Of a stretch of 34,105 nucleotides of DNA, positions 20,763 through 22,258 are shown in pieces. Under the pieces are notes generated by a model. That model was not told the origin of the DNA and did not search any database. It saw only the letters and a program-made list of their open reading frames with translations. The translations under genes were made by a program, and so were the position numbers. Numbering within the stretch: the first letter of the stretch is position 1; each line of letters starts with the position of its first letter. Source of the DNA: a virus; the IMG/VR virus record IMGVR_UViG_3300042465_003850, positions 1-34,105 of that record, one strand, 5' to 3'.

Positions 20763-21593
20763 ATGAATTTTGACTATTACAAATTAGAAGCGATTAAACA
20801 TTTTGGTAGTAACTTAAATAACACACAAATAGCAGAAAAGATAATAGTTGAAAATAGTGAAATAACTTTAGAAACATTAAGAAAAAAAATAGGTATTCTA
20901 AGGACAAAAGAAAATAAATTAAGTCCTTTTGTAAATGGTAATTTAGATAATGTTTTAATAATTGGAGATTTACACGCACCATTTACACTTCCGAAATATT
21001 TAGAATTTTGCAAAGAGCAACAAAAAAAATATAATTGTGGGCGTGTTATTTTTATCGGAGATATAATTGATAATCATTATTCAAGTTACCACGAATCAGA
21101 CCCCGACGGAATGAGCGCAGGAGATGAATTAGACAAAGCAATACAAGACATACAAGCGTATTACGATGCATTTCCAACAGCAACTGTTATAATAGGAAAC
21201 CACGATAGATTAGTGTATCGTAAAGCCTTTAGCGGTGGAGTTTCTAAACGCTGGGTTAAAGAGTACAAAGATGTTTTAAAAGTACCGAATTGGGATTTTG
21301 TCGAAAGTATTGAAATATTCAATGTTAATATCAATCACGGTGAGGGCGGAACTGCAAGAAGCAAAATGAAAAAAGATTTACAATCACAAATACAAGGACA
21401 TTTACATTCAGATTTTTACCTTGAGTATATAGTCGGTAAAAACTTTAGAATATTTGGAATGCAAGTAGGTTGTGGAGTTGACCATCATAGTTATGCAATG
21501 GCCTACGGACGCAATTTTAAAAAACCAGCTATTGGTTGTGGCGTATTATTAAATAAAGGTACTTTGCCAATAATAATACCTATGAAGTTATAA
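20763..21593 (+). CDS. Calcineurin-like metallophosphoesterase with N-terminal HTH
   Basis: A 276-residue protein. The metal-binding motifs are all present: GDLH (68-71), GDIIDNH (99-105), GNHD (145-148), NHGE (191-194) and GHLH (212-215). Residues 1-50 (NFDYYKLEAIKHFGSNLNNTQ then TLRKKIGILRTKEN) look like a helix-turn-helix of the type fused to such enzymes in phages. It may hydrolyse nucleotides or a phosphodiester in DNA or RNA; the substrate is unknown. It is the last gene before a strong terminator. Confidence 0.85.
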   Translation: MNFDYYKLEAIKHFGSNLNNTQIAEKIIVENSEITLETLRKKIGILRTKENKLSPFVNGNLDNVLIIGDLHAPFTLPKYLEFCKEQQKKYNCGRVIFIGDIIDNHYSSYHESDPDGMSAGDELDKAIQDIQAYYDAFPTATVIIGNHDRLVYRKAFSGGVSKRWVKEYKDVLKVPNWDFVESIEIFNVNINHGEGGTARSKMKKDLQSQIQGHLHSDFYLEYIVGKNFRIFGMQVGCGVDHHSYAMAYGRNFKKPAIGCGVLLNKGTLPIIIPMKL

Positions 21594-21623: not shown

Positions 21624-21649
21624 CCCACAATTACGATTGTGGGTTTTTT
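21624..21649 (+). terminator. Intrinsic terminator of the late operon
   Basis: CCCACAAT (21624-21631) pairs with ATTGTGGG (21636-21643) around TACG and is followed by T6. It closes the structural/lysis transcription unit and separates it from the non-coding region. Confidence 0.95.
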
Positions 21650-21664: not shown

Positions 21665-21694
21665 TTGTTTATCTAAATAATAGTTATATATTTG
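21665..21694 (+). promoter_or_regulatory. Bacteroidota-type promoter of the non-coding RNA
   Basis: TTG (21665-21667), a 19-bp spacer and TATATTTG (21687-21694), a full match to the TTG...TAnnTTTG consensus. Transcription should start near 21700. Confidence 0.8.
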
Positions 21695-21699
21695 TAATT

Positions 21700-21803
21700 C
21701 AATTTGGCTAGATACCTATTGAAACATTTAGGTTGTCAAATTGTAAAAGCAAAAACCAACCCTTAAACAAAGTTATCTAGCCCTTTGTATTAAGGGTTTT
21801 TTG
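21700..21803 (+). ncRNA. Candidate structured small RNA ending in a terminator
   Basis: A roughly 100-nt unit with its own promoter and terminator and no start codon. CAATTTG (21700-21706) pairs with CAAATTG (21737-21743), enclosing a hairpin ACCTA/TAGGT (21714-21718 / 21729-21733). The terminator stem is AACCCTTAA plus ACAAAG (21758-21772) with CTTTGT and TTAAGGGTT (21783-21798, one bulged A), then T6. Its loop (21773-21782) contains TATCTAGCC, an exact complement of GGCTAGATA at 21706-21714, giving a 9-bp pseudoknot or kissing helix. It could be a trans-acting RNA or a leader attenuator. No known family is recognised. Confidence 0.7.
21758..21802 (+). terminator. Intrinsic terminator of the small RNA
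   Basis: A 15-bp stem with one bulge and a 10-nt loop, followed by T6. A shorter alternative hairpin CCCTT/AAGGG (21781-21796) uses the same 3' strand. Confidence 0.85.
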
Positions 21804-21956
21804 TTTCCTAAAAACAATCGTAATAAGAAATTAAGGGGAAAACTTCAACAATTTGGCTTATTATTAAAGCACTAAAATGGGTTCTAATGGTGCAACTGTA
21901 AACGAAACTACGACGGGCTAACTAAGTAAATTTCAAACAGAGGAAAAAGGTATAAA
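21804..21956 (+). other. Non-coding stretch with hairpin potential
   Basis: There is no convincing ORF. TAATAAG (21821-21827) pairs with CTTATTA (21857-21863), with inner pairs AAATT/AATTT and AAG/CTT. The 10-mer CAATTTGGCT at 21849-21858 repeats the start of the upstream small RNA (21700-21709). AAACAGAGGAA (21935-21945) pairs over 11 bp with TTCCTCTGTTT (22008-22018). No promoter is seen, so it would be reached by read-through of the upstream terminator. Confidence 0.5.
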
Positions 21957-22061
21957 ATGAAAAATATTTATATCTGGATTAACGAGAAATCAGTTTTTCC
22001 CTTAGGCTTCCTCTGTTTACTCACCAACTTTAAACTTCAAAGTAATATAATAATTAAATAA
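21957..22061 (+). CDS. Possible 34-residue hydrophobic peptide
   Basis: ATG at 21957 opens 34 codons with a hydrophobic middle (SVFPLGFLCLLTNF), ending in TAA at 22059-22061. The start region lies inside the loop of the 11-bp inverted repeat 21935-21945 / 22008-22018, so translation could be structure-controlled. There is no homology evidence; it may equally be part of a non-coding RNA. Confidence 0.3.
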   Translation: MKNIYIWINEKSVFPLGFLCLLTNFKLQSNIIIK

Positions 22062-22213: not shown

Positions 22214-22258
22214 AAATTAATTAACTACTATTATATTAATAAAGTAGTTGTATATTTG
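22214..22258 (+). promoter_or_regulatory. Early promoter module, copy 1
   Basis: TATATTTG (22251-22258) preceded by TATATTAATAAAGTAGTTG (22232-22250), almost the same sequence as in the module before 25783 and similar to the one before 30409. The start codon of the first gene of the operon lies 33 bases downstream. The -33 TTG is not matched here. Confidence 0.7.

Follow-up and report, generated by a model that had tools for sequence, protein, structure and literature searches.

A phage RNA with covarying pairing between its 5' region and its own terminator loop: a possible self-terminating leader in phages of Bacteroidota

The window analysed here, which is the whole 34,105-nucleotide stretch of a 34-kb virus record, carries profile matches to terminase, portal and endolysin at its left and to NinG, Erf-like, DnaB-like and exonuclease proteins at its right, all on the + strand. 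Between a metallophosphoesterase gene (20763–21593), which has its own terminator 3' of it (21624–21643), and the early-type genes lies the site of the element that we call RNA1. A search of the window with ARAGORN returned no tRNA or tmRNA genes. We infer Bacteroidota hosts because RNA1 is preceded by a TAnnTTTG promoter box, the portal is 37% identical in Nonlabens phages and the phosphoesterase is 71% identical in Flavobacterium phage 11b; the phages that carry RNA1 probably infect flavobacteria (Flavobacteriia). The features of the locus, in window coordinates, are as follows.

21665–21667, + strand: TTG, read from the sequence as a candidate −33 element for a promoter of Bacteroidota type, with a 19-base spacer to the −7 box
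21687–21694, + strand: −7 box TATATTTG (TAnnTTTG), its position kept in 29 of 29 distinct relatives
21698–21803, + strand: RNA1, predicted transcript of about 106 nt (start from promoter spacing, end from the terminator; family of 29 sequences)
21700–21708, + strand: 5' strand of helix P1, CAATTTGGC, its last three bases common to the pseudoknot strand
21706–21714, + strand: PK5, GGCTAGATA, 5' strand of the pseudoknot, from loop complementarity and covariation
21714–21718, + strand: 5' strand of helix P2, ACCTA
21729–21733, + strand: 3' strand of P2, TAGGT
21735–21743, + strand: 3' strand of P1, GTCAAATTG
21758–21798, + strand: intrinsic terminator hairpin (10-nt loop at 21773–21782; T run at 21797–21802)
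21774–21782, + strand: PK3, TATCTAGCC, 3' strand of the pseudoknot in the terminator loop, from covariation
21804–22045, + strand: RNA2 type A, a conserved structured noncoding element directly 3' of the RNA1 terminator

The core of RNA1 is the exact 9-bp complement between PK5 and PK3, the latter lying inside the 10-nt terminator loop, which a sequence-only reading of this DNA had already pointed out. The terminator is present as that reading described it, with a 15-bp stem composed of AACCCTTAA/TTAAGGGTT and ACAAAG/CTTTGT, one bulged A and then six T, and the T run is kept in the RNA1 relatives. PK3 ends directly at the 3' stem strand, leaving by eye ~1–3 unpaired loop bases on the opposite side, and pseudoknot and terminator stem could therefore coexist as a stack. 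The two helices proposed for the 5' part, CAATTTG/CAAATTG around ACCTA/TAGGT, are both there, but the outer one, P1, is longer than had been thought, with 9 pairs including one G-U. The nested fold of RNA1 has a z score of −3.4, with equal stability in none of 200 shuffles. The estimate that the loop complement, stem and helix together are unlikely by chance was borne out for the complement by dinucleotide shuffling of the 60-nt 5' part with the loop fixed, in which a 9-bp Watson-Crick match arose in none of 20,000 shuffles and an 8-bp match in eight.

The promoter turned out to be of another type than a "consensus promoter" read as sigma-70. A sigma-70 promoter was rejected, since sites found by a sigma-70 scan are no more numerous than in shuffles; what stands is a predicted promoter upstream of the RNA, in the form of the Bacteroidota-type box. 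Bacteroides promoters are reported to have a −33 motif (PMC7366714), and the TAnnTTTG box of Flavobacterium psychrophilum is reported at −12 to −5 (PMC9723704). With this spacing, the window RNA would start at ~21698–21699 and thus span 21698–21803. From the start of the box to the first conserved base there are 12 bases in 25 of the 29 sequences, 11 in two, and 13 and 14 in one each; box position and F. psychrophilum spacing together therefore suggest that the conserved RNA begins at the predicted first transcribed base. Family-wide, the predicted length is ~85–112 nt.

Complete RNA1 was found on 33 IMG/VR contigs beyond the window, and partial copies on two more (L004/L022 and L097), which makes 29 distinct complete sequences with the window included. 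A protein search with the phosphoesterase yielded nine loci, six of which extend past the gene, and RNA1 is present in five of these six (cut short in L004); L009, with a phosphoesterase 64% identical, is nevertheless without it. Further loci came from pattern scans in which the pseudoknot letters were left open and from a scan for the element that follows RNA1. One pattern scan gave 65 stretches (50 new loci), of which only the five with a model E ≤ 2.1e-4 were kept (L048, L051, L057, L068 and L072), the other 45 being dropped as unrelated DNA. The scan patterns account in part for the conservation of TCAATT, CCTATTGA and, in two scans, TTAGG, a bias that does not apply to loci from the phosphoesterase and following-element searches.

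Searches outside this set brought no additional members. DNA searches with other RNA1 family members gave no credible match, and a model scan of 395 Bacteroidia genomes gave no RNA1 among the best 10 candidates per listed genome. Two matches from a pattern scan of host genome contigs, L042 and L043 (model E 0.29 and 0.0088), were judged to be chance because neither shows a promoter box or a terminator in the stretch inspected. No RNA1 was found in Flavobacterium phage 11b or Nonlabens phage P12024S, both of which have relatives of the phosphoesterase. After this gene, phage 11b has a TATATTTG box, a short noncoding stretch and a terminator (L044:5330–5400) without the features of RNA1; this stretch is perhaps a lost or unrelated short RNA.

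Compensatory changes in related phages, which the sequence-only reading had named as a test, are present in the PK5/PK3 pairing. The 29 sequences comprise 20 distinct PK5/PK3 combinations, 19 of which keep 6–9 contiguous standard pairs despite differing letters, whereas after partner swapping (10,000 trials) a mean of only 2.3 of the 20 combinations, and at most 8, had at least 6 pairs. The exception, L013, has two pairs in the common register and seven, one of them G-U, in a register shifted by one base. Base composition alone would speak for chance complementarity in AT-rich DNA, and we regard this explanation as practically negligible given the shuffles described above and covariation across 20 distinct combinations. 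Sequence comparison establishes, as predicted features, where the promoter lies, the helices P1 and P2, the terminator and the pairing of the pseudoknot, and RNA1 is well supported as a real RNA with the structure, promoter and family predicted for it.

The two strands of the outer helix P1 also vary together, its mean score of 12.97 comparing with 10.96 after partner swapping (sd 0.51; maximum 12.3 of 300) and 9.08 after linker shuffling. Variants include AATCGG/CCGGTT in L039 versus AATTGG/CCAATT in L024, and P1 is weak or interrupted in L013 and in some long-class members. P2 shows one two-sided change (L002) and one-sided changes. An alternative pairing, P0 (ATCAAT/ATTGAT), was set aside because most of its letters had been prescribed in the scan patterns. 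In the window, the pseudoknot shares three bases with the 9-bp outer helix and one with the inner hairpin, so these helices cannot all be complete at once. The earlier proposal of a pseudoknot tying both ends together is upheld in its pairing by covariation, but P1 and pseudoknot compete for bases and there is no joint complete structure. Since 3–6 pseudoknot bases are already paired when the 5' domain adopts its most favourable fold, in 29 of 29 sequences, the RNA looks, in these models, as if it had two competing states, a P1/P2 hairpin and a pseudoknot. When no pseudoknot penalty is applied, replacing P1 by the pseudoknot lowers the modelled energy by 1.8 to 9.6 kcal/mol; the pseudoknot is favoured in 20 of the 29 at a penalty of 4 kcal/mol and in 4 at 7 kcal/mol, a dependence which suggests that the two states are close. 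The conflict between the states is a property of the modelled folds throughout the family.

Directly 3' of the terminator comes one of three highly conserved noncoding elements, types A, B and C, which are large, unlisted and accompany RNA1. RNA1 is directly upstream of type A in 14 of 16 loci (the other two are cut at the edge), of type B in 5 of 5 (one with a partial RNA1) and of type C in 6 of 6. RNA2 type A, of ~242 nt, has two-sided changes in 13 of 49 predicted pairs (14 sequences: the window, L002, L007, L013, L014, L016, L018, L024, L025, L032, L034, L035, L039 and L041) and no Rfam or tmRNA match. Type B, a structured noncoding element of ~290 nt carried by L005 (5846–6155), L021, L028, L031, L051 and L097, has such changes in 10 of 67 predicted pairs across these 6 sequences; an invariant outer helix is predicted for it, beginning directly after the RNA1 terminator. 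Type C, of ~340 nt and noncoding, is carried by L012 (12190–12537, − strand), L015, L019, L020 and L027, shows 95% mean column identity (5 sequences) and contains two CCGAAAGG motifs. L029 has something other than types A–C after RNA1. In L057 (2682–4131) and L072 (5272–7285), there is no RNA2 and an ORF starts at most 40 bases after the RNA1 terminator. The first ORF of L057 has a DUF6291 match and weak replisome-organizer profile matches and is followed by a gene with a DnaC-like helicase-loader match; the first ORF of L072 has only a sub-threshold DUF7833 match, with a weak AAA match in a gene further on. Judged from these profiles, the genes directly after RNA1 in the two loci are putative replication operons.

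Most RNA1 loci have recombination and replication genes nearby, and in L057 RNA1 stands right beside the replisome-organizer and helicase-loader matches, a setting that would suit an action in replication itself, as an RNA primer or an origin structure, instead of gene control. We consider this highly improbable, because promoter and terminator exactly bound RNA1, and because P1 contains G-U pairs in the window, L005, L007, L029 and L031, which would turn into A-C mismatches if read on the − strand and thus indicate that it is the + strand RNA that is conserved.

Our preferred, and tentative, reading, to which we assign a probability of about 0.4, is that RNA1 is a phage-encoded self-terminating leader that sets read-through into the early/replication region. 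Transcription would start at the first conserved base of RNA1 and mostly end at the intrinsic terminator of RNA1. At first, the nascent 5' end would fold as the P1/P2 hairpin; as the terminator loop emerges, 6–9 of its bases would displace part of this hairpin and pair with the 5' segment, resulting in a pseudoknot stacked on the terminator stem. The choice between the states would then set the efficiency of this large-loop terminator, and with it the amount of polymerase that continues into structured RNA2 or straight into replication genes, while the stopped product would remain as a stable, end-locked small RNA. The effect of the pseudoknot on termination, its direction and the signal that would shift the balance are what we infer here beyond the comparison.

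The placement of RNA1 argues for such read-through control, since it lies between a predicted promoter and genes or RNA with no recognizable promoter of their own, which, with the −7 box pattern as the sole criterion, is weak evidence. In the 26 of 29 sequences long enough to cover 250 bases after the terminator, these 250 bases contain no −7 box with a TTG at 17–23 bases and a bare −7 box only in L020; the window has a later −7 box at 22251–22258. This position suits the attenuator that had been suggested for the downstream sequence, but the classical antiterminator, which we looked for, was not found. Pairing of the 5' domain with the two terminator strands is not above partner-swapped controls (12.90 vs 12.87 and 11.93 vs 11.97), whereas the loop pairing stands out in the same swap test (20.1 vs 11.8; sd 0.67). 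A classical antiterminator was thus ruled out as a conserved feature, and any effect on termination must therefore be kinetic or protein-mediated. If RNA1 does control termination, an intrinsic terminator would be made conditional without an antiterminator helix. Leader-peptide attenuation was also rejected. The window RNA has no ATG, as had been claimed, but ATGs do occur in the variable part of several relatives, where they vary in place and length.

The missing antiterminator and the shuffled neighbours, on the other hand, speak for an RNA with more independence. There is no fixed link between pseudoknot type and downstream element, the GGCTAGACA pseudoknot occurring with type A (L034, L040), with type B (L051) and with neither (L072), and the GGGTTGCA pseudoknot with type C in L020 and with type B in L028. 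It is nearly as likely as the leader reading that RNA1 is a free-standing small RNA acting in trans on a protein, RNA polymerase or host messages, whose terminator is unconditional and whose pseudoknot only locks the ends into a stable compact RNA. RNA1 has a predicted promoter of its own, from which the start is fixed in 29 of 29 sequences, and a strong terminator of its own whose T run is conserved. Intergenic sRNAs of Bacteroides, such as GibS, are usually built in this way, with a TAnnTTTG promoter and an intrinsic terminator on either side of ~100–150 nt (PMC7366714). Unlike GibS, RNA1 is phage-encoded, and it has its 5' end tied up in P1 or in the pseudoknot, whereas the conserved 5' region of GibS is largely single-stranded. 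Against a small RNA acting in trans speak the lack of a recognizable promoter for the downstream sequence and the variability of the pseudoknot segment, which cannot seed one fixed host target. In the phage flanks of 24 loci, there is no recurring site that could be its fixed base-pairing target; 21 of these loci have no second exact copy of the segment there and three have scattered copies. Should RNA1 act in trans, phages of Bacteroidota would have in it a stable RNA with locked ends.

A further reading takes up how the pseudoknot letters change. When the 17 relatives of one class are compared pairwise, positions 3–7 of the pseudoknot are different in 53% of cases, versus 12% for the 3' terminator strand; the value for the 5' end in the same 17-member class (2%) is biased by the scan patterns. 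The pseudoknot segment is the fastest-changing paired part of RNA1 and is always re-matched to its own terminator loop. In plasmid copy-control RNAs, contact loops diverge and give rise to new incompatibility groups, and the varying pseudoknot letters of RNA1 resemble these diverging loops. RNA1 might be a self-specific switch, in which accumulated RNA pairs in trans with nascent RNA1 of the same type and sets its terminator on or off; this is quite unlikely in our estimate, and if true would time the early region and tell self from co-infecting relatives. Hypervariable, always re-matched letters could also be plain drift of a structural helix.

A further system that invites comparison is antitermination by put RNAs. 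The put RNA of phage HK022 suppresses downstream terminators and binds the polymerase beta' subunit at its zinc-binding domain. These RNAs, of ~70 nt with two stem-loops, are found downstream of early promoters and suppress intrinsic terminators, and RNA1 resembles them (PMC9378689) as a short structured RNA that heads an early phage transcript ahead of terminators. A put-like nascent RNA1 would bind the elongating polymerase so that downstream terminators, its own included, are ignored, which would agree with its position, where a promoter of the early region immediately precedes it, a terminator follows and no later promoter is recognizable nearby. We nonetheless think this unlikely, because the RNA1 terminator hairpin is one half of the conserved pseudoknot, a feature absent from the description of put, which has two stem-loops and no pseudoknot to a terminator loop.

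RNA1 had been called undescribed, and this agrees with Rfam 15, in which the window and six related loci have no match at gathering score and relaxed cut-offs give sub-threshold matches only; no report of RNA1 was found in the literature searched, which was that in PMC. The arrangement in which a 5' end pairs with the loop of its own terminator, covaries and conflicts with a hairpin was not found in the Rfam families or PMC literature searched. Among described leaders, the ZTP (pfl) riboswitch has a pseudoknot that joins an upstream segment to a hairpin loop and is coupled to an intrinsic terminator, which forms only once P3 and the pseudoknot break (PMC10687018). RNA1 differs in that the terminator's own loop holds the pseudoknot partner, no conserved alternative partner exists for the terminator stem, the pseudoknot letters vary freely and there is no Rfam match to it. 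The fluoride (crcB) riboswitch (PMC10687018) is likewise a small pseudoknotted leader ahead of a terminator, with an arrangement different from that of RNA1 and, again, no Rfam match.

As a minor observation on the family, the RNA1 of L013 (8555–8645) has a 5' half like that of L041 and a terminator half like that of L029/L030, with complementarity surviving in the shifted register; its sequence suggests recombination between two RNA1 types.
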